Shown here one piece after another: positions 1,224 through 48,099 of a DNA stretch of 48,099 nucleotides. Source of the DNA: a virus. The stretch spans positions 1-48,099 of IMG/VR virus record IMGVR_UViG_3300048088_000772; one strand, given 5' to 3'. Position 1 is the first letter of the stretch, and every line of letters begins with the position of its first letter. The notes beneath the pieces were generated by a model that saw only the letters and a program-made list of their open reading frames with translations, searched no databases and was not told the origin of the DNA. The position numbers were made by a program, and so were the translations under genes.

Positions 1224-1769
1224 ATGGCAAAGCCAGCCGCACGCATCACCGATCCCATCAGTTGCCCAATGCCCGGGCACGGCCCCAAAGCCATCGCCTC
1301 CGGTTCCCCCGACGTATTCTTCGACGGACTTGCAGCCGCCCGAAAAGGCGACGCCTGCACCTGTGGCAGCGCATTGGCATCAGCGGTTTCAGGGACAGTT
1401 TTCATAAACAGCAAAAACGCCGCGCTTGTCGATACGGTCGGCACTCATGGTGACATCATCATTGGCGGATCAGGTACGGTGATCATTGGTGATTCGCATA
1501 CCCCTGCTCCCTTCATTCCACCTACCCCGATGGTCGTTCACGGCGACTGGATCGGGTTCAAAATTCCGGCTAACGAAAACTATGAAGGACTTTCCTGCGT
1601 CGCTCATTTTGAAGACGGCTCTAAAATGGAAGGCGTGTTTGACGCAAATAACACGGTGAAATTTTCAAATCCCACGGGCAAGGCCTGTACTGCGATTGAT
1701 TACGGAACTGACGAGATCCAAAGCGGCCCGTCGATTCTGGAAACTATTCTCGGCAAAATTCAGAGATAA
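1224..1769 (+). CDS. PAAR-domain T6SS tip protein, cassette 1
   Basis: A 181-residue protein with an N-terminal PAAR domain (residues 1 to about 95: AARITDP, then the CPMPGHGP and GSPDVFFDGLAAAR segments and a glycine-rich end). PAAR proteins form the sharp metal-binding tip on the VgrG spike and carry effectors to it. The last 80 residues form a separate domain (CVAHFEDGS, NPTGKAC) that may be an effector adaptor. The ATG at 1224 follows AGGGAG. The next gene begins ten bases after the stop, so PAAR, effector and immunity genes look co-transcribed. It is the same length as the copy at 4467. Confidence 0.9.
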   Translation: MAKPAARITDPISCPMPGHGPKAIASGSPDVFFDGLAAARKGDACTCGSALASAVSGTVFINSKNAALVDTVGTHGDIIIGGSGTVIIGDSHTPAPFIPPTPMVVHGDWIGFKIPANENYEGLSCVAHFEDGSKMEGVFDANNTVKFSNPTGKACTAIDYGTDEIQSGPSILETILGKIQR

Positions 1770-1779
1770 GGAGTATCTC

Positions 1780-2562
1780 ATGACAGAACCAATGCTCATT
1801 ACTGGTAGCTATGTCTTGAAGAGAGAGCACGATCTTCATAGCTCACCTTTAGAAATGGCAATCGCTGGAATGGAAGGCGCAGCAGCACGTTTTGCGACTG
1901 ATGCTATTAAAGACGCTAATACTCGTCTGAAATATCAAGCCAAGATCAAGGAAATGTCTCGCCTGGTTGAGGCTGAGGTCATGGCAGGAAAGGTTTCAGC
2001 CAAAGACGGCGTTGCTTACTGCCAAGAAATGCGAAACAACATTATGAACGAGCACCGCAAGTTTACGTCTGCTCAGGGCGTCGCCGTTGCGGAATACATC
2101 AAGCTCAACGGCCCAACACTACAGACCACTTTAGACAAATACGCTCACACGCTATTCAAGAAAAAGTTTGACCTTTTGACCGATGCAGAAAAGTCTAAAG
2201 TCCATTATCTGATTCTGAAAAAGTCCGGCGTAGACAATGCCAAGGTTACTCGTGGCACGAAGATGATGAAAGTCACCGGTAAGGTCGCATGGATTGTAAC
2301 CGCTGCCTTCGCTGCCTCTGAGATCTACAAAGCAGACAACAAGCCAAAAGAAGCCGGACGCCAAGGGATTATCCTGGGTGGAGGCGCCGCCGGTGGTGCG
2401 TTAGCCGGATTGAGTATTTCGATGCTGTGCGGACCCGCCGCCCCGGTCTGTGCAATCGCAGTTGTGGTTGCGGGAGGCGTCGCAGGCGGTATTCTTGGCG
2501 ACGTAGTGGCGGATAGTCTGGATGAAGAACTGGAGGAGTTTTTGACATGGAACGTTCAATGA
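1780..2562 (+). CDS. Putative T6SS effector with glycine-zipper C-terminus, cassette 1
   Basis: A 260-residue protein directly behind the PAAR gene, with AAGGAG six bases before ATG. The N-terminal 100 residues (GSYVLKREH, SPLEMAIAGMEGAA, EMRNNIMNEHRKFTSAQGVA) are shared with the copy at 5023. Residues 110-150 diverge between copies. The C-terminal part has a hydrophobic helix (VAWIVTAAFAA) and a long Gly/Ala-rich zipper interrupted by CGPAAPVC. This architecture suggests a membrane-acting, perhaps pore-forming, toxin or a translocation domain; no enzymatic motif was recognised. The effector role is inferred from context and is not proven. Confidence 0.7.
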   Translation: MTEPMLITGSYVLKREHDLHSSPLEMAIAGMEGAAARFATDAIKDANTRLKYQAKIKEMSRLVEAEVMAGKVSAKDGVAYCQEMRNNIMNEHRKFTSAQGVAVAEYIKLNGPTLQTTLDKYAHTLFKKKFDLLTDAEKSKVHYLILKKSGVDNAKVTRGTKMMKVTGKVAWIVTAAFAASEIYKADNKPKEAGRQGIILGGGAAGGALAGLSISMLCGPAAPVCAIAVVVAGGVAGGILGDVVADSLDEELEEFLTWNVQ

Positions 2563-2909
2563 CGGATGAGGAACTCGCTTACGTCTATTGGGCGCTATCT
2601 GACGCTTTTGTTGATACAGAAGTTGATTACGAAGCTATTGCGCGCCAAACCGAAAACTATGACCCTGAGGAGATCAGGCGAATTCTCTATCACGAGATAG
2701 CGCCTGTCTGTCATACGAATCTTGAGACGGTGATTCCAATGATATGGTCAGCATTCAATTTAGAAAATTTGAAAGCGGACATAGAGAGCATGCTAAGCAT
2801 GCGAAAAAATAGTTACTTTCGCCGCCAAAAAGACAAACTATTAATACGTTGGCTAGAATTCAGGTACAGCTATATCTGGAAAGAGATTAAAAAACACTAC
2901 AAGAGTTAA
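2547..2909 (+). CDS. DUF7079-like putative immunity protein, cassette 1
   Basis: A 120-residue paralogue of the protein at 1-369 (ALSDAFVDTEVDYEAIA, ILYHEIAPVC, YSYIWKEI). Two starts are possible. The ATG at 2547 has GGAGGA nine bases upstream. The ATG at 2559 gives an ATGA overlap with the effector stop, as in cassette 2. Either way it is translationally coupled to the effector, the usual arrangement for an immunity gene. Predicted soluble and cytoplasmic. It may protect against the effector at 1780, although that effector looks membrane-active and a cytoplasmic antidote would then have to act at the inner face of the membrane. Confidence 0.75.
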   Translation: MERSMTDEELAYVYWALSDAFVDTEVDYEAIARQTENYDPEEIRRILYHEIAPVCHTNLETVIPMIWSAFNLENLKADIESMLSMRKNSYFRRQKDKLLIRWLEFRYSYIWKEIKKHYKS

Positions 2910-3039
2910 CCACCTTGAACAAAAGACCATATCGAAATAGCAGGCTTAGGATTACTGATGAAGCTGTGTTTGAAACGAAAAATTGGCGTATGTATTTACT
3001 ACCAAGCATCCCAACGACTAACAAAGGACTAACAAAGGG

Positions 3040-3086
3040 GACGGATTTATTTACCGCCGAAACCTCAGCCTCTAAATAAATCCGTC
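3040..3086. repeat. Perfect 14-bp inverted repeat downstream of cassette 1
   Basis: GACGGATTTATTTA (3040-3053) and its exact reverse complement (3073-3086) enclose 19 bases and are followed by ACTTTTTC. It could be a terminator for cassette 1, though the U-run starts late. The GGGACGGATTTATTT-type end also resembles ends of REP-associated transposon remnants in Pseudomonas; that comparison is from memory. Confidence 0.6.
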
Positions 3087-3092
3087 ACTTTT

Positions 3093-3470
3093 TCATCCCC
3101 GATGAATGATTGAGTCATTTATCGCGCCGACGACTCTGGAAATCCAGGACAGATCCACATCTTGCAGCGCCTGTTGCTCTCCAGAGGACGTAGTAAGCAC
3201 AATTGTGTAGATCGTCTTCTGCATAAAGAACCAAGCAAGACCTGCAAAAAACAAGACGACGGAAACCGTATTGATACCTTTGTTATATCCGATAATCACC
3301 CCAACGATCATCAGCAGTACGGGCCAAGTACGGTTAGGATTTATTTGAGAGGTTTTCACAGCCGTGACTCCACTCATCGCAAACGTCTTTTGCCCCGGAA
3401 GGATGAACCGGCTGTTGGTAACCTTTACTTCACGTTCGTCAAAAAAGACCTTTTCTTGCTGAGCGTCCAT
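3093..3470 (-). CDS. Small two-helix membrane protein (DUF6232-like)
   Basis: This protein of about 125 residues has an N-terminal beta-rich segment (FFDEREVKVTNSRFILPGQKTFAMSG), two adjacent hydrophobic helices (WPVLLMIVGVIIGY and VSVVLFFAGLAWFF) and a C-terminal segment (YTIVLTTSSGEQQAL). The layout is that of DUF6232-type inner-membrane proteins of unknown role. The ATG at 3470 has AAGGA six bases upstream; a GTG 15 bases earlier is less likely. It is convergent with the T6SS cassette. Confidence 0.75.
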   Translation of the reverse strand: MDAQQEKVFFDEREVKVTNSRFILPGQKTFAMSGVTAVKTSQINPNRTWPVLLMIVGVIIGYNKGINTVSVVLFFAGLAWFFMQKTIYTIVLTTSSGEQQALQDVDLSWISRVVGAINDSIIHRG

Positions 3471-42333: not shown

Positions 42334-42499
42334 GGAATACGCCCGCCAGATCATCGCCATGCGGACACGAGAGGAGCGCAACGCCGCGCTCCTCGAAGTG
42401 CCCGAACATCTGCGCGAGCTGACCAGAACGCACTGCCTGAACGCCTGGAACCACCCGGCCAGAACACAACGCAAGGAGGCCCAACAAAGCCATGAGTAA
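42320..42499 (+). CDS. Small overlapping phage protein with GTG start
   Basis: 59 residues reading VTWPREYARQIIAMRTREER and on to ARTQRKEAQQSHE. The WPREYARQII and LRELTRTHCLNAWNHPA blocks are typical of a short conserved protein next to antirepressor genes in Pseudomonas phages, function unknown. It begins at GTG 42320 inside the KilAC gene and ends eight bases into the next gene. Easy to miss because of its length and start codon. Confidence 0.75.
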   Translation: MTWPREYARQIIAMRTREERNAALLEVPEHLRELTRTHCLNAWNHPARTQRKEAQQSHE

Positions 42500-42809
42500 C
42501 ACAGCACAGAACCCGCTCCGCCTGCACCCGGCGCCGGAATCAGCCACTGTCGAATTGCTTTACCGCATCTTCGGCGACGTCCTGATCCCGCTGGACAAAG
42601 TGCGCGAGCAGTACTTCCGCAACCTCAACGAGCAATCGTTCGTGGCCGAGATCAGCAGCGGCCGCATCCAGCTCCCCATCACCACGCTGGACACCAGCCG
42701 CAAGGCACCGAAGTACGCACACATCCGACACGTCGCTTCCCTGATCGACATCCGCGCCTACAAGGCCGACGAAGACATGCAACGGCAGCAGGATGACACC
42801 AACGAGTAA
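42492..42809 (+). CDS. PrtN-like activator, copy 1
   Basis: 105 residues. TVELLYRIFGDVLIPLDKVREQYFRNLNEQSFVAEISSGRIQLPI corresponds to the PrtN/pyocin activator core (PLDKVxxxYF, GxIxLPI), followed by HIRHVASLIDIRAYKADED matching its IHxxDLADYID end, though more diverged than the copy at 45078. PrtN proteins activate pyocin or phage late genes through P-box sites. Here it lies in the early operon under CI. Confidence 0.75.
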   Translation: MSNTAQNPLRLHPAPESATVELLYRIFGDVLIPLDKVREQYFRNLNEQSFVAEISSGRIQLPITTLDTSRKAPKYAHIRHVASLIDIRAYKADEDMQRQQDDTNE

Positions 42810-42866: not shown

Positions 42867-43286
42867 ATGACTGCAATTCAGATCTGCGCACTCATCGCCC
42901 TTATCACCCTGGCTGGCTTACTAGTCTGGGCCGGCTACTTCATGGGGCACAGCGACGGCATGTCCGCCGGCATGAAAGAAAGCGATAACTCCCTGCGCGC
43001 TGAAAGTGCCAAGACCATTCGCGAGTTGAGGGCCTCCCTCGACTTCATCAAGGCTGACCACGCCCACTTGGCGCAATTCAGCAAACGCCTTCAGCAAGCG
43101 TTGAAACTTGGTGAACCCGAACGCCAGACATTGCTCGATATCGCCGAAAAGCTCCGTATTGCCGCCGAGACATTCGCCGCGTTTCGCACGGGTAAAAAAC
43201 TCGAGCGCGAAACCCGCGCCCTGCGCGAAGAAGCACTCGTCATCGCAGCGCTACTGGAGCCAGCAGATCAGGAGAGCGCTGCATGA
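42867..43286 (+). CDS. Membrane-anchored coiled-coil phage protein
   Basis: 139 residues. One N-terminal membrane helix (IQICALIALITLAGLLVWAGYF) precedes a charged helical domain (SLRAESAKTIRELRASLDFIKADHAHLAQFSKRLQQAL, LDIAEKLRIAAETFAAFRTGKKLERETRALREEALV). GGAG lies nine bases before ATG. The function is unknown; an inner-membrane role in lysogeny or DNA entry exclusion is possible. Its end overlaps the next start as ATGA. Confidence 0.75.
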   Translation: MTAIQICALIALITLAGLLVWAGYFMGHSDGMSAGMKESDNSLRAESAKTIRELRASLDFIKADHAHLAQFSKRLQQALKLGEPERQTLLDIAEKLRIAAETFAAFRTGKKLERETRALREEALVIAALLEPADQESAA

Positions 43287-44317
43287 GCCAGATCTGCTCC
43301 CAATCCAACACCCACCACAACCCGGCTCACGCCTCACCAGCGGCTGATGAACCAACGCGCATTCGAAACACGGAGAAAAGCGGCATGCAAAAGGACCAGC
43401 ACAACACCCAATCCAAGACCGCTTTGCTCCGCACGGAAATCAGCGTCGACACACTAGAAACAAACAGCCTCTGCTGCGCAGCAGCAGGCATTATTGCTCC
43501 TTCCAGCAGCACCACCGAGGCGCTTATACCCCACGAAAAGCTGCGCGGGGCAGCGACACCCAATGCAACGCTAATCGCTCAGAATCGCCCGCCCGCGCAG
43601 CCTGCCGTGGGGTGTGAGCTCGTGCTAGGACTTCAATTTTTCAAGGTACAAGGTTTCAGAGGCAATGAGTTCGCTCACATGGGACTTAATCTCAGAGAGA
43701 TCATCAACTGCCCTTTTTCGATCAATCATTCCAGAAACGTCATCAGGGAAGATCAGCTTGATGAACTCCATGACAAGCATTCGTACATCGTAAACATGCT
43801 TCAAAAACATCACGTCAGAGCTCTTCAAACTCAAGATATTCAGTCGTTCGATTACATCCAGGGAGCGGTCGTATACAAACTCCCTAGCCCATCCATACGA
43901 CCCGTTGTTCCGACTTCCAACCGGGGATCCAAGAAGCTTTTGAGTCTCTTGAATCAAATTTCTAAATTGGTGGTAGGCACCCACCACACCCTCTACCTCG
44001 GTGATTTTCCTTTGTCTTCTTTCATCCTTTTTCATCACCGCCGGAACAATGACAGCAACGAATATTGCGAGAACAGAGCCGACAGCTTGAACCCAACCCG
44101 ACGCGTCCTTGGGAAGCCATTCAAGCTTCACCCAATAAGCAATAGAACCAGCCAAAAGCCAAAAGGCGGCCGTCCCGAACATCAGATACCACAGCGCCCA
44201 GATACTCCGTCGAATCATCCGATTCCTATCCAACATCACCCATGGCTCCTAGCCATAAAAAAACGAAGCATGACTAGATTCGACCGCCTCGTCCATTTAG
44301 GAGGGAAAAGTGAATGA
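43283..44317 (+). CDS. Doubtful long frame coupled to the upstream gene
   Basis: The frame opens with ATGA overlap after the membrane protein gene, which argues for real translation of at least the first 110 codons (QICSQSNTHHNPAHASPAAD onwards). From 43625 on it runs antisense to a better-supported minus-strand gene and loses protein-like character. The likely explanation is that a native gene was cut when the minus-strand gene was inserted at about 43620. No family recognised. Confidence 0.25.
   Translation: MSQICSQSNTHHNPAHASPAADEPTRIRNTEKSGMQKDQHNTQSKTALLRTEISVDTLETNSLCCAAAGIIAPSSSTTEALIPHEKLRGAATPNATLIAQNRPPAQPAVGCELVLGLQFFKVQGFRGNEFAHMGLNLREIINCPFSINHSRNVIREDQLDELHDKHSYIVNMLQKHHVRALQTQDIQSFDYIQGAVVYKLPSPSIRPVVPTSNRGSKKLLSLLNQISKLVVGTHHTLYLGDFPLSSFILFHHRRNNDSNEYCENRADSLNPTRRVLGKPFKLHPISNRTSQKPKGGRPEHQIPQRPDTPSNHPIPIQHHPWLLAIKKRSMTRFDRLVHLGGKSE
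43625..44218 (-). CDS. Membrane accessory protein on the opposite strand
   Basis: 197 residues, less GC-rich than its surroundings. Two N-terminal membrane helices (SIWALWYLMFGTAAFWLLAGSIAYW and WVQAVGSVLAIFVAVIVPAVM) are followed by a cytoplasmic helical domain (VVGAYHQFRNLIQETQKLL, VIERLNILSLKS). The ATG at 44218 has AGGA five bases upstream. As a single minus-strand gene set into the rightward operon it fits a lysogen-expressed accessory gene, possibly acting in superinfection exclusion; no family was recognised. Confidence 0.65.
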   Translation of the reverse strand: MIRRSIWALWYLMFGTAAFWLLAGSIAYWVKLEWLPKDASGWVQAVGSVLAIFVAVIVPAVMKKDERRQRKITEVEGVVGAYHQFRNLIQETQKLLGSPVGSRNNGSYGWAREFVYDRSLDVIERLNILSLKSSDVMFLKHVYDVRMLVMEFIKLIFPDDVSGMIDRKRAVDDLSEIKSHVSELIASETLYLEKLKS

Positions 44318-45065
44318 GCTGGCTCTTTTCGCAGGCGCTGGTGGCGGAATACTCGGAGGACACCTCCTCGGCTGGCGCACCGTATGCGCCGTTGAGCGTG
44401 ATGCCTACGCCGCACAGATACTGGCGCAACGACAAGCCGATGGACTGCTCCCGCCTTTCCCGATTTGGTCTGACGTGTGCAGTTTTGACGGACGACCATG
44501 GAGAGGCCTTGTTGACGTGGTTTCGGGAGGATTTCCTTGTCAGGACATCTCGGTTGCAGGCAACGGCCTTGGTATCGCCGGCGCCCGCTCTGGACTGTGG
44601 CAGCAGATGGCACGAATTACCGATGAGGTACGACCGCGCTACGTCGAACTGGAGAACTCACCATTGCTTGTGGGAAGAGGACTTGCCGTGGTGCTCGGTG
44701 ACCTTGCCGAAATCGGGTATGACGCGCGATGGGGTGTTATCGGAGCGGCTGACCTCGGCGCCCCTCATCAGCGGGACAGGATCTGGCTCATCGCAGAAGA
44801 CACCCGTCAGACGATGGCCAACACCGGTGGCGAGCATGGCCAAAGGATCCTCCCCTGCCGCACTGACTCGCCGTTCCGGGGCAGACCGCTCGAACGACCG
44901 CCTGGATCACGCCGTGATGGCTCTGGATGGTGGTCATCTGAACCCGGAATGGGCCGAGTGGCTGATGGGGTGGCCCATCGGGTGGACCGACTTAAAGCCA
45001 TTGGCAACGGACAGGTTCCAGTCGTGGCTGCAAGCGCATTCGAATCGCTTTCCCGCAATCATTAA
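44310..45065 (+). CDS. C5-cytosine DNA methyltransferase (phage Dcm-type)
   Basis: 251 residues from a GTG with AGGAGGG four bases upstream. Motif I LFAGAGGG (6-13), motif IV GGFPCQD with catalytic Cys77, motif VI ELEN (113-116), motif VIII QRDR (154-157) and motif X KAIGNGQVP near the end give a short but complete enzyme. The target-recognition region is small, so specificity is probably limited. It methylates phage DNA against restriction. A second long frame covers it completely (44314-45081). No partner endonuclease gene is visible. Confidence 0.88.
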   Translation: MNELALFAGAGGGILGGHLLGWRTVCAVERDAYAAQILAQRQADGLLPPFPIWSDVCSFDGRPWRGLVDVVSGGFPCQDISVAGNGLGIAGARSGLWQQMARITDEVRPRYVELENSPLLVGRGLAVVLGDLAEIGYDARWGVIGAADLGAPHQRDRIWLIAEDTRQTMANTGGEHGQRILPCRTDSPFRGRPLERPPGSRRDGSGWWSSEPGMGRVADGVAHRVDRLKAIGNGQVPVVAASAFESLSRNH

Positions 45066-45081
45066 TCAGGAGGTTGTATGA
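44314..45081 (+). CDS. Full-length overlapping frame over the cytosine methylase
   Basis: 255 codons in the +1 frame relative to the methylase. The ATG has the same AGGAGGG at the better spacing of eight bases, and its TGA overlaps the next start as ATGA, as true genes do in this phage. The protein opens MSWLFSQALVAEYSEDTSS and ends with HLNPEWAEWLMGWPIGWTDL, blocks I recognise from many annotated phage proteins. Those homologues could themselves be shadows of methylase genes, at least over motifs I-VIII, so a real product is plausible but unproven. No catalytic motif is seen. Confidence 0.5.
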   Translation: MSWLFSQALVAEYSEDTSSAGAPYAPLSVMPTPHRYWRNDKPMDCSRLSRFGLTCAVLTDDHGEALLTWFREDFLVRTSRLQATALVSPAPALDCGSRWHELPMRYDRATSNWRTHHCLWEEDLPWCSVTLPKSGMTRDGVLSERLTSAPLISGTGSGSSQKTPVRRWPTPVASMAKGSSPAALTRRSGADRSNDRLDHAVMALDGGHLNPEWAEWLMGWPIGWTDLKPLATDRFQSWLQAHSNRFPAIINQEVV

Positions 45082-45347
45082 ACACCCTTTTCCTTTTGAT
45101 GGCCCAGTACAACGGGCAAGCGGTCATCCCCCTGGATCGAGTCTGTGCAGACTACATGAATTTAACTGTCGAAAAATTTAAGGCAAAACAGCTTACCGGC
45201 GAGATCGACATACCAATTGTTCGGCTAGGTCCAAACAGCCAGAAAGCCGGGCTCGGCATCCACCTCAGGGATCTCGCAGACTACATAGACTGCCAACGAA
45301 AAAAGGCATTATCTGAACAAAGTAAGCTCATGAGGGGCGCCAGATAA
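45078..45347 (+). CDS. PrtN-like activator, copy 2
   Basis: 89 residues. MNTLFLLMAQYNGQAVIPLDRVCADYMNLTVEKFKAKQLTGEIDIPIVRLG, then KAGLGIHLRDLADYIDCQRKKA, follows the pyocin activator PrtN pattern nearly from end to end. AGGAGG precedes the start. Last gene of the CI-controlled operon, so it would accumulate after induction and could switch on later genes. Two PrtN-like proteins in one operon is unusual. Confidence 0.88.
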   Translation: MNTLFLLMAQYNGQAVIPLDRVCADYMNLTVEKFKAKQLTGEIDIPIVRLGPNSQKAGLGIHLRDLADYIDCQRKKALSEQSKLMRGAR

Positions 45348-45370
45348 TAAAAAGGGGCTGATCAGCCCCT
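45346..45370 (-). terminator. Terminator of the P-loop ATPase gene
   Basis: AGGGGCTGATCAGCCCCT (45353-45370) is an 18-base perfect palindrome followed on the minus strand by TTTTTATT. It ends the integrase-ATPase transcript. The plus-strand PrtN operon may end at the same stem, but without a U-run. Confidence 0.85.
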
Positions 45371-45379
45371 CCTCTAATA

Positions 45380-46987
45380 TTACTTATAATCGCGACTGAT
45401 CGAGAGATGCGCACAGAGCGCATTGTGTATAAAAATATTCTGATCAAAAAGAATTTCATCATCTCCTCGAAATGAAAATCTCATATGGGAGCCACCGGGA
45501 GCTATATTACCTATAACGCCGATTCGAAATAGATCCTTAACAATTTCTCTAACAGAATATTTTACGATCAGCGCATGAGTTTCTTTATGCTCAGTTGCAA
45601 CGGCATCAGCACGAGTTATGAGATCGCTCAAGCTACTAATCTGTTTGAACCCATAAAAAATATATTTAATTCCTTCGATTTCCGCCGTACTATATTTGGT
45701 TCTGAGCTCCTCCGTGAGCTCGACCCATGACGCAGTAGAATATGCCTTTCTTACTGCTTCGAGTCCTTGAAGAATAAAGCTTTTTTCATGTGGATATTGA
45801 TCCTGTACGGTTATCAACAACCTGACAATATCTCTCGGACGGTACCACGAATTGTGAAGAATATAGATCTGCGGAGAGCGACCATTAATTTCTCGTGGAA
45901 AATAACTTTGCCATAAATCATTTGAACTCAAAGGATCGAGCCCGGCTTCAACTCTCGCATTATTAATTCTCTGCTCAACTATATTTAACAATGGTTGTTG
46001 AGCCGCACTCAACCCCGGACGATTCCAGTGAATAAGCGAGCCAAAATCAGCTATGGACTTATTAATCTCCTTACCAAGAGCATCAACCGAAACTACCACC
46101 TCAGAACGAATAGCCGCATATAAACACAGCGGATATCCGAGCTTCTTTGAATTAGCATTTAACTTTTCAATAGAGACAATCAAATCTCTCACTAAACGTG
46201 AATCTCGCTGATATTGCTTGGCTGTTCCGTAGTTCAACTCAAGCTCATCGAAAAAAATGTTTAGCCGTTGACCGCTAGGTTCGAGAGCGTTAAAAGCGGC
46301 GTCGGCTTGCCGAACAAGCGAGTTAAAATTTATCTTGGCCTTTCCACTTTCATCCCAATCAAACTCAAGTCCTAATTTAGGACTCTTACTAATTTCTATA
46401 TTACCCTTACGAATATTCGGAACCAACCTCATCAAGCCAGCTCTCTCAGGTTGAGTTAACGCCTCAGAACTGACAACCGCTATAAATTTATCTAAATTTA
46501 TATTATTCTGAAATACATCAACATTTTTTTCCTGAATTGCCGCTGCTATTTTTCTATATATAAACCAACGCCATACTGTTTCGAGATCGTCACCTTCAAA
46601 GGCATCGCTATTCTCAGTAACAACTTGAACTCGTGCTGCCTTGGAAAAATCCTTCCGGAGATCTTCATCGATTTCAGATTTGAAGAGTACAAACGTTGAA
46701 ATCGACCCAAGCTCCTCTTCTAGCTTGATAGAAATATACCGTAATAATGCAGTTTTTCCTGTACCCTTTAAACCCACCACATAATATTTTTCTTTTTTTG
46801 TAAACTTTGTGATATCAAGCGCCGGAGGTACAACAAACGAATCGACAAATCTTTTAAATTCTTCAGGACTATTACTGAGCATTTCATTTTTCGCATCAGT
46901 ACTACCAAGATAGATATTTTTTAGCTTCAACATCAATGAGTCCTTTTTCCTTGATGGCTTTTTGCCAAAGCTACTGGCAACGCTCAT
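45380..46987 (-). CDS. P-loop ATPase coupled to the integrase gene (candidate defence protein)
   Basis: 535 residues, markedly AT-rich. Walker A GLKGTGKT at residues 72-79, Walker B LNIFFDELEL in the middle, later an arginine-containing segment HNSWYRPRDIVRLLITVQDQYP. The pattern resembles the Sll1717-type P-loop ATPases, whose role is unknown. The C-terminal part is a winged-helix-like region (VREIVKDLFRIGVIGNIAPGGSHMRFSFRGDDE). The ATG overlaps the integrase stop as ATGA, so production is tied to the integrase. Single-gene ATPases at the attachment edge are often phage-defence cargo; this is inference. Confidence 0.75.
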   Translation of the reverse strand: MSVASSFGKKPSRKKDSLMLKLKNIYLGSTDAKNEMLSNSPEEFKRFVDSFVVPPALDITKFTKKEKYYVVGLKGTGKTALLRYISIKLEEELGSISTFVLFKSEIDEDLRKDFSKAARVQVVTENSDAFEGDDLETVWRWFIYRKIAAAIQEKNVDVFQNNINLDKFIAVVSSEALTQPERAGLMRLVPNIRKGNIEISKSPKLGLEFDWDESGKAKINFNSLVRQADAAFNALEPSGQRLNIFFDELELNYGTAKQYQRDSRLVRDLIVSIEKLNANSKKLGYPLCLYAAIRSEVVVSVDALGKEINKSIADFGSLIHWNRPGLSAAQQPLLNIVEQRINNARVEAGLDPLSSNDLWQSYFPREINGRSPQIYILHNSWYRPRDIVRLLITVQDQYPHEKSFILQGLEAVRKAYSTASWVELTEELRTKYSTAEIEGIKYIFYGFKQISSLSDLITRADAVATEHKETHALIVKYSVREIVKDLFRIGVIGNIAPGGSHMRFSFRGDDEILFDQNIFIHNALCAHLSISRDYK

Positions 46988-48099
46988 GATTGTCCATTCA
47001 TGTTTATTCCATTTGAAAACACCTGAAGCCACGACCATTGACGGTAACGGTCACCTCTCCCACGGAGGTGTGTGTAGCGCCGTAAAGAATTCCAATCCCT
47101 ATGACCGGACACGCTCGACACCCTCGGAATGTCCCAGTCCATCTCAAACAGACGGCTCACACCTTCGTGCCTCAGATCATGGAAGTGCAGATCCTCAATC
47201 CCCAGCAGCGGGCACGCCCGCGTGAACGATGCGGATACCGACTTGGAGTTGTACGGAAAGATCTCGCGGTCGGTCCGGGGCATGCTCTGCAGGATCGCCC
47301 AAGCCTCATCCGGTAAATGGCACCACACATTGTTGCCGATCTTCTGCCCGGGGTTCTTCATATCACGCACCAGGACCGCCTGCCGGGACTCGTCAAGGTC
47401 ATCCCAGCGAATCCGCGTGATCTCCTCCTGACGGCGCGTCGAGAAGAGAGCAAACGCAATCATCTTCGGCATGTTGATCGACTCAGGTCGACGTACCTGC
47501 ATCTCGAAAAAATGCGCCATCAACCTATCCAACTCGTCGAGCGTCGGCCGACGGTTACGCTCCATGCTCTTGCTCACCATACCCAGCTTTCGCAACACCT
47601 TGCGTGCGTCAGGCATGGCAAGCGGATCCACCTCGTAGCCCCATGCCGGCCTTGCCACGGATAGGACAGCCCCTAGGTGCGAGAGATCATTGCCAACCGT
47701 CTGCGCCTGTACGCCGCCGCCCTCCTTCCCCATCCGCCACTGTGCAAACTCCACCAGCTTCTGACTGGTCAGAGCAGAGTCCTCAAGGTCTCCCAGCCAG
47801 GTATCCTTGATCGCTTTCAAGGTGGCGTTCTTGGTCTTTCCCAGCGGCCGGATCTTCTCGTACTCGTCCAGGTACTGCTCGATCATCTTCCTGATCGTCA
47901 CACCCTTACGGTTTGCACGCTCAATCGCACCAGGCTCAGCCAGCTCCGTCTCACGTCGTTTGATCCAAGCCTGCGCGACCTGCTTTCGGTCGAAGGTTTG
48001 GCTTTCCTGATAAACTGTGCGCCCGTCCCGATTGATCCGTATCTGCGCCGTGTAGGCCGTCGAGTTGTCCTTGCGCTTACGTGATGTGATCGTGCCCAT
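46984..48099 (-). CDS. int: Tyrosine integrase of the dusA-targeting type
   Basis: 371 residues; the ATG is the last triplet of the window. The N-terminus MGTITSRKRKDNSTAYTAQI is the AP2-like arm-binding part, then a core-binding helix region, then the catalytic domain with Arg in FALFSTRRQEEITRIRW, HDLRHEGVSRLF, GHRDW and the nucleophilic Tyr in SLRRYTHLRG. The N-terminus matches integrases that insert into the 5' end of dusA, which agrees with the dusA fragment at 3673. Upstream, beyond the window, attR and the rebuilt dusA are expected. Confidence 0.92.
   Translation of the reverse strand: MGTITSRKRKDNSTAYTAQIRINRDGRTVYQESQTFDRKQVAQAWIKRRETELAEPGAIERANRKGVTIRKMIEQYLDEYEKIRPLGKTKNATLKAIKDTWLGDLEDSALTSQKLVEFAQWRMGKEGGGVQAQTVGNDLSHLGAVLSVARPAWGYEVDPLAMPDARKVLRKLGMVSKSMERNRRPTLDELDRLMAHFFEMQVRRPESINMPKMIAFALFSTRRQEEITRIRWDDLDESRQAVLVRDMKNPGQKIGNNVWCHLPDEAWAILQSMPRTDREIFPYNSKSVSASFTRACPLLGIEDLHFHDLRHEGVSRLFEMDWDIPRVSSVSGHRDWNSLRRYTHLRGRGDRYRQWSWLQVFSNGINMNGQS

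Follow-up and report, generated by a model that had tools for sequence, protein, structure and literature searches.

Two overlapping frames at a phage methylase locus

A cytosine methylase gene and a second, full-length frame share one stretch of DNA and one ribosome binding site in this viral genome. The window, by which we mean the whole 48,099-nucleotide stretch analysed, is IMG/VR record IMGVR_UViG_3300048088_000772, positions 1 to 48,099. The methylase frame, f0, has 251 codons from GTG 44310 to TAA 45063-45065; the other frame, f1, lies in phase +1 relative to f0 and has 255 codons from ATG 44314 to TGA 45079-45081. The sequence reads A (44299) and GGAGGG (44300-44305), AAAA, GTG (44310), then AATG AGC, placing AGGAGGG 4 bases from the f0 GTG and 8 from the f1 ATG. 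A TGA in the f1 frame stands immediately 5' of that ATG, and f1 must therefore start at 44314. At the far end, the f1 stop overlaps the ATG (45078) of a prtN-like gene as ATGA. An earlier note on this DNA had read both ends in this way, with two starts four bases apart behind one AGGAGGG and an ATGA junction, and the sequence agrees. The features are as follows.

44299..44305, +: Shine-Dalgarno AGGAGGG, common to f0 and f1 (sequence)
44310..45065, +: f0, GTG start, cytosine-5 methyltransferase, proposed catalytic (large-domain) subunit (PF00145, PHROG 363, AlphaFold2, M.HhaI)
44314..45081, +: f1, ATG start, full-length +1 frame, proposed recognition (small-domain, motif IX) subunit
44319..44357, +: f0 motif I (ALFAGAGGG...; invariant columns of alignment A3)
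44523..44552, +: f0 motif IV with the catalytic Cys (SGGFPCQDIS; invariant columns of A3)
44652..44660, +: f0 motif VI (ENS; invariant E115 and N116 in A3)
44766..44795, +: f0 motif VIII (HQRDRIWLIA; the Pfam and HhaI sequence match ends here)
44835..45005, +: f0 stretch opposite the f1 core, residues 176-232, predicted confidence below 50 (AlphaFold2)
44991..45041, +: f0 motif X (LKAIGNGQVPVVAASAF; AlphaFold2 helix 237-248; hhalign to fusion proteins)
44791..44937, +: f1 WPTP-type segment, proposed variable recognition region (f1 dNN/dNS 0.14; aligns with LPTP repeats)
44938..44994, +: f1 LNPEWAEWLMGWPIGWTDL, motif-IX-like (near-invariant columns of alignment A2; RLxxxFxEWMMxLPxG of one-chain methylases; C-terminus of fusions)
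45078..45347, +: downstream PrtN/excisionase-like gene, ATGA overlap with f1 (PF11112, 4.1e-26; PHROG 1300 excisionase)

The numbers I, IV, VI and VIII are those we take these f0 motifs to have, and the invariant columns come from the 78 relatives of alignment A3. Motifs I, IV (PCQ), VI (ENx), VIII and X, which the earlier note had listed, are present and in order.

Two PrtN/excisionase-family genes flank the methylase, at 42492-42809 and 45078-45347 (PF11112, 1.8e-28 and 4.1e-26). Between the prtN-like gene and the integrase, an interval where phages often carry cargo, a gene for a 552-residue ORC-CDC6-like ATPase lies at 45380-47038 on the minus strand (PF24389, 2.7e-7); PADLOC gave no match to it. 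An Rfam search of window positions 43000-45500 also gave no match.

Conservation of both frames

The two frames travel together. Relatives were taken from IMG/VR (69 loci found by f1, 80 by f0 and 80 by the f1 alignment) and from bacterial genomes (80 kept of 166 confirmed). In these loci (L001-L309, some of which repeat the same contig), f0 and f1 are both present, overlapping and in the same +1 phase in 309 of 309, and none has f1 without f0. In loci L381-L438, from two genome sets, f0 was also matched in 57 of 58; the exception, L436, is a weak match with stops.

The f1 frame stays open far beyond chance. We shuffled synonymous codons within each f0 gene, keeping the f0 protein, and f1 of the window stayed open in 0.3% of shuffles. 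Across 108 distinct f0-intact genes (the window plus genes of L001-L149), the +1 frame holds 0.23 stops per gene against 3.72 expected, and f1 is fully open in 84 against 1.5 expected. Stops were then counted by region in representatives below 80% identity, with f1 openness not a condition. In 122 representatives, codons 2-160 hold 0 f1 stops against 332.3 expected, and the remaining codons, to 15 before the f0 end, hold 11 against 171.5. The same holds for the 31 representatives fetched by f0 alone, with 0 stops against 81.2 expected in codons 2-160 and 1 against 46.4 in the remainder; codons 2-160 are open in all 31, where 2.0 were expected. The earlier note had held that homologues with the second frame broken at normal frequency would speak against dual coding; we looked for them, and these counts are the reverse.

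Start signals are conserved with the frame. Among 244 distinct genes with an f1 ATG (the ATG being required for this count), a TGA lies just 5' of it in 218, an ATG, GTG or TTG lies four bases 5' of it in 221, and a Shine-Dalgarno is placed 8-9 bases from it in 162 of the 199 with a recognisable one. This layout bears on whether programmed +1 frameshifting, instead of two starts, joins f0 and f1 into one chain. Mycobacterium phage Shaka and loci L335-L340, in which f0 ends after motif VIII and the rest lies in +1, would suit such a mechanism, but f1 of the window family starts at a well-spaced ATG of its own, usually with a TGA directly before it, and f0 has its own motif X after the overlap. 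The separate f1 start disfavours frameshifting, which we consider quite improbable here.

Where a stop breaks one frame only in these genes, that frame is f0. Leaving out 3 of the 244 genes with an incomplete f1 match, both frames are open in 228 of the 241 that remain. Seven were flagged for a stop confined to f0, of which L068 is a start-codon artefact; the other 6 (L004, L159, L177, L202, L206, L209) have an internal f0 stop with f1 still open. None of the 241 has a stop in f1 alone, and 6 have frame slips. In an E. coli prophage copy (L444), both frames are broken. Of the methylases picked as controls, those of Nostoc and Paenibacillus plasmids both have f1 and that of V. cholerae is a tandem fusion, so these were reclassified; a Tsukamurella control shows no excess openness of its +1 frame. 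Two Microcystis methylases (L318, L329) were not counted in this comparison.

Purifying selection acts on both f0 and f1. For 42 close sequences (811 pairs), dNN/dNS of f1 is 0.22 (0.15-0.34) and dNN/dSN of f0 is 0.17 (0.12-0.24). Constraint on f1 is uneven: per 40 codons, its ratio is 0.45, 0.28, 1.04, 0.22, 0.14 and 0.15, with 1.30 in a last window of only a few codons, and the value of 1.04 falls in f0 codons 80-120. In codons 160-200, f0 is relaxed to 0.57 while f1 is at 0.14. The stronger constraint thus lies on f0 in the first two thirds and on f1 in the last third, and codons 160-240 are better conserved in f1 than in f0. Taken by itself, this ratio is weak, not decisive evidence, because the same measure ranged from 0.16 to 3.5 in 28 ORF families tested alike, many of them spurious antisense ORFs, and was 0.81 and 0.36 in two integrases.

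The codon-position profile is stronger evidence than this ratio. Pairwise differences at f0 codon positions 1/2/3 are 18.5/6.0/22.5, position 1 varying nearly as much as position 3; the integrase of the same contigs gives 9.1/3.5/42.5, two further integrase-like families give 7.1/1.7/44.9 and 11.2/5.2/46.8, and the Acinetobacter set gives 32.7/19.0/24.4. Changes placed on the tree number 345/112/444 overall and 230/69/112 in codons 160-244. Two mycobacteriophage sets of 5 sequences each (20/4/45 and 1/2/5) are too small to weigh. None of 243 distinct f0-silent changes created an f1 stop, where 4.2 were expected, and these changes are slightly milder in f1 than chance (-1.016 vs -1.134, sd 0.036).

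Could f1 still be a translation shadow, open and similar only through f0 conservation and codon usage that avoids +1 stops? The weak constraint in codons 80-120 would fit, as would the classical one-chain methylases found in Streptococcus phages and on a Listeria plasmid (L450, L451, L453, L441). These have their own RKLTPRECWRLQGFP in f0, and their +1 frames are open for 141-177 codons, a length reached by at most 1 in 1000 codon shuffles. Residues ~65-166 of f1 resemble these +1 frames, so part of the similarity in the f1 middle reflects f0. Against a shadow stand the empty codons 2-160 of the 122 representatives under f0-protein-preserving shuffles, the better conservation of f1 than f0 in codons 160-240, and the recurrence of the WPTP/LNP part of f1 in one-chain and fused proteins, which have no overlapping f0 from which it could arise. 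The annotation shadow raised in the earlier note is thus hardly credible for the window family, given shuffles, selection and stop counts, and something like it does occur in the Streptococcus phage and Listeria plasmid methylases. At the protein level both frames are conserved, and the sequence comparisons make dual coding, the other option in that note, very well supported and close to certain.

A catalytic frame and its candidate recognition partner

The f0 protein looks like a methylase large domain from which the small domain is missing. Its residues 4-168 match Pfam PF00145 (1.1e-29), and it matches PHROG 363 (1.5e-61); matches in Pfam and PDB sequences stop at motif VIII. The AlphaFold2 model (pTM 0.73) is confident for residues 1-175 and for the motif X helix at 237-248, where the motif X block has a mean pLDDT of 87, and falls below 50 at 176-232. 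It superposes on M.HhaI 12-322 over 181 residues (Z 21.0). In C5-methylases, as laid out in the relevant passage of PMC3404938, motifs I-VIII and X form the large domain, and the recognition region and motif IX form the small one. Because sequence matches end at VIII, the model is unconfident at 176-232 and the remainder aligns with the M.HhaI fold, f0 corresponds in that layout to a large domain minus its small domain. In a one-chain enzyme, motif IX and a target recognition domain would sit on that one polypeptide; judged by sequence and model, f0 is without a recognisable small domain.

The f1 protein resembles the missing part. It conserves an N-terminal MSWLFS segment, WPTP segments and LNPEWVEWLMGWPxGWTDL, its WPTP repeats being followed by a motif-IX-like LNPEWVEWLMGWP end. 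Actinophage methylases (L324-L330) are single chains in which LPTP repeats and RLxxxFxEWMMxLPxG lie between motifs VIII and X, and f1 matches this region of the one-chain enzymes by hhalign (Prob 96, E 4e-9); on this profile match, we regard the two as homologous. Six Vibrio and Alteromonas plasmid methylases carry f0 and then an f1-like domain as a tandem fusion in one chain, with residues 2-277 matching f0 (E 2e-30) and 300-411 matching f1 (E 2e-8). As a control, the f0 profile was compared with that of f1 and gave no match. This fusion is strong evidence that f0 and f1 work together. One PADLOC methylase profile is matched by f0 at 6-158 and by f1 at 297-351, the f1 match being weak (E 0.0068, 9 of 123 f1 proteins).

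Entries matching f1 already exist in profile libraries. PHROG 1008, 'DNA methyltransferase', is matched by 122 of 123 f1 proteins and phrog_26627 by 123 of 123; gene calling in some phages has therefore already included f1. In the library, phrog_26627 and phrog_35493 are of unknown function, and the entries for these two and PHROG 1008 make no mention of overlap or a subunit role. No Pfam family matches f1. Its profile also found no match to the classical motif IX of methylases with RKLTPRECWRLQGFP, and the one-chain actinophage set matches those classical methylases only around motif VIII; the label 'motif IX' for f1 thus rests on order and pattern. AlphaFold2 models f1 alone poorly (mean pLDDT 60.6, pTM 0.28), and neither PDB sequences nor PDB folds (Foldseek) gave a match. 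Two structural leads were set aside: the best BFVD matches were viral proteins at TM about 0.2, of no use, and alignment A4 against PDB gave a single weak match, Rad8, outside the segment in question.

We propose that the locus encodes one two-subunit cytosine-5 methyltransferase in overlapping frames, with a probability of roughly 0.8 on the sequence and model evidence. In this enzyme f0, which carries motifs I-VIII and X, would be the large domain and act as catalytic subunit, and f1 would be the recognition subunit, providing the small domain that f0 lacks. The variable WPTP region of f1 would choose the target, and its motif-IX-like end would dock on f0. Ribosomes loaded at the single Shine-Dalgarno would choose between two starts four bases apart, a single message would thereby yield the two proteins in similar amounts, and f0 and f1 would assemble 1:1. 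We infer the translation of both frames, their assembly, their joint activity and a target sequence.

Dual coding could also be real with f1 a separate protein, acting in anti-restriction or as a regulator of the methylase or the prtN-like gene. The ATGA overlap of f1 with that gene, the lack of a known fold or Pfam family for f1 alone, and the six genes that retain f1 despite a broken f0 all fit such a role. Yet an f0 relative stands alongside f1 in every one of loci L001-L309, f1 shares homology with part of one-chain methylases and follows f0 in the fused plasmid enzymes, and the f0 model is without exactly this domain. A separate function is thus unlikely, and the 'anti-restriction or regulatory partner' of the earlier note finds no support; by its homologies, f1 probably looks instead like the missing half of the enzyme.

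The arrangement is broad. Frames of the f1 type occur in +1 within methylases of Porphyromonas, Bacteroides, mycobacterial, Vibrio, Microcystis and Stenotrophomonas phages and of Leptospira, Acinetobacter, Nostoc and Paenibacillus plasmids. They also occur in a second methylase type, found in genomes from the family to which G001 (genome of L185) belongs and from the genus of G002 (genome of L150); alignment A2 was matched in 20 of 295 G001-family genomes and 28 of 398 G002-genus genomes. In distant forms (such as SG4, Porphyromonas and Bacteroides), f1 starts inside f0 and MSWLFS is absent. Each of 14 annotated records records one frame, f0 in 10 and f1 in 4 (L312, L313, L315, L321).

Some relatives carry further rearrangements. 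In a Gordonia phage (L323 and L324, about 580-2290 and 1600-3346), the methylase gene is split after motif VI by an insert annotated as an HNH endonuclease; its +1 frame reads AYVAGLIDGEG, LAGLIDADG-like by eye. A Paenibacillus plasmid methylase (L440, 1435-2925) has two successive copies of GQLNPxWVECLMGFP in the +1 frame and two copies of the matching frame-0 segment, which suggests internal duplication.

Such cytosine methylases are probably two-part machines of which annotation usually records one part only. We lean towards a wider reading, in which a large share of the orphan cytosine methylases of phages, prophages and plasmids, across many phyla, would be obligate heterodimers whose recognition subunit is nested in +1 and mostly unannotated. 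Because nested, end-overlapping, one-chain and tandem-fused versions coexist, this proposal also has the recognition half moving between reading frames in evolution. If true, cloning or modelling a single gene would, for many 'orphan' phage cytosine methylases, capture half an enzyme, a possible reason why attempts to see activity or a target have failed. These loci would also be a widespread example of long same-strand dual coding and have a readable logic, the overlapping proteins being two domains of one enzyme. Together, the one-chain, fused, split and nested forms would offer a natural series for studying how a domain changes its reading frame.

Relation to known split and overlapping methylases

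Split methylases and overlapping methylase genes both have precedents (for split enzymes, see passages in PMC3404938, PMC3439449 and PMC5944983). In Streptococcus thermophilus phages of the 5093 group, two 'DNA methyltransferase' ORFs overlap in different frames in what a passage of PMC5601072 calls 'total overlap', and that passage cites like overlaps in a pneumococcal phage and Tn5252. In phages 5093, P0091 and IPP55, unlike at the window locus, motif IX (RKLTPRECWRLQGFPDWAF) lies in frame 0 together with X, and the second frame spans only the f1 middle. The published streptococcal overlap belongs to the class with a classical motif IX in frame 0. We found no report of a nested recognition subunit in Gram-negative phages in the open-access library searched, which is not proof of absence.

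M.AquI (CYCGRG) is an alpha/beta C5-methyltransferase that, according to a passage in PMC3404938, occurs naturally as two polypeptides divided after motif VIII. It differs from the window locus in that motif X is also on its small subunit; nested genes are not part of the passage's description. Closer to M.AquI are Mycobacterium phage Shaka gp77/gp76 and loci L335-L340, where f0 ends after VIII and the +1 frame holds LPTP repeats, an RLxxxFxEWMMxLPxG-type motif and motif X. In Shaka (L452, 1120-2215), gp77 and gp76, both annotated as DNA methylase, are halves of a single methylase in an end-to-start +1 overlap.

The small-subunit gene of M.EcoHK31I lies inside its large-subunit gene in another frame. 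By comparison, f1 is 255 residues long and starts 4 bases after f0. M.EcoHK31I (YGGCCR) is a two-polypeptide C5-methyltransferase whose large polypeptide, according to the passage in PMC3404938, has motifs I-VIII and X, with motif IX in the small one. At the window locus f0 also has I-VIII and X. Its f1 matches the VIII-X region of one-chain relatives, which ends in the motif-IX-like RLxxxFxEWMMxLP, and gives no profile match to classical motif IX. The locus probably works like M.EcoHK31I and is a candidate member of that type. The two differ in where recognition would lie: the same passage places the predicted target recognition domain of M.EcoHK31I in the large subunit, whereas f0 is without an ordered segment there and the variable region is in f1.
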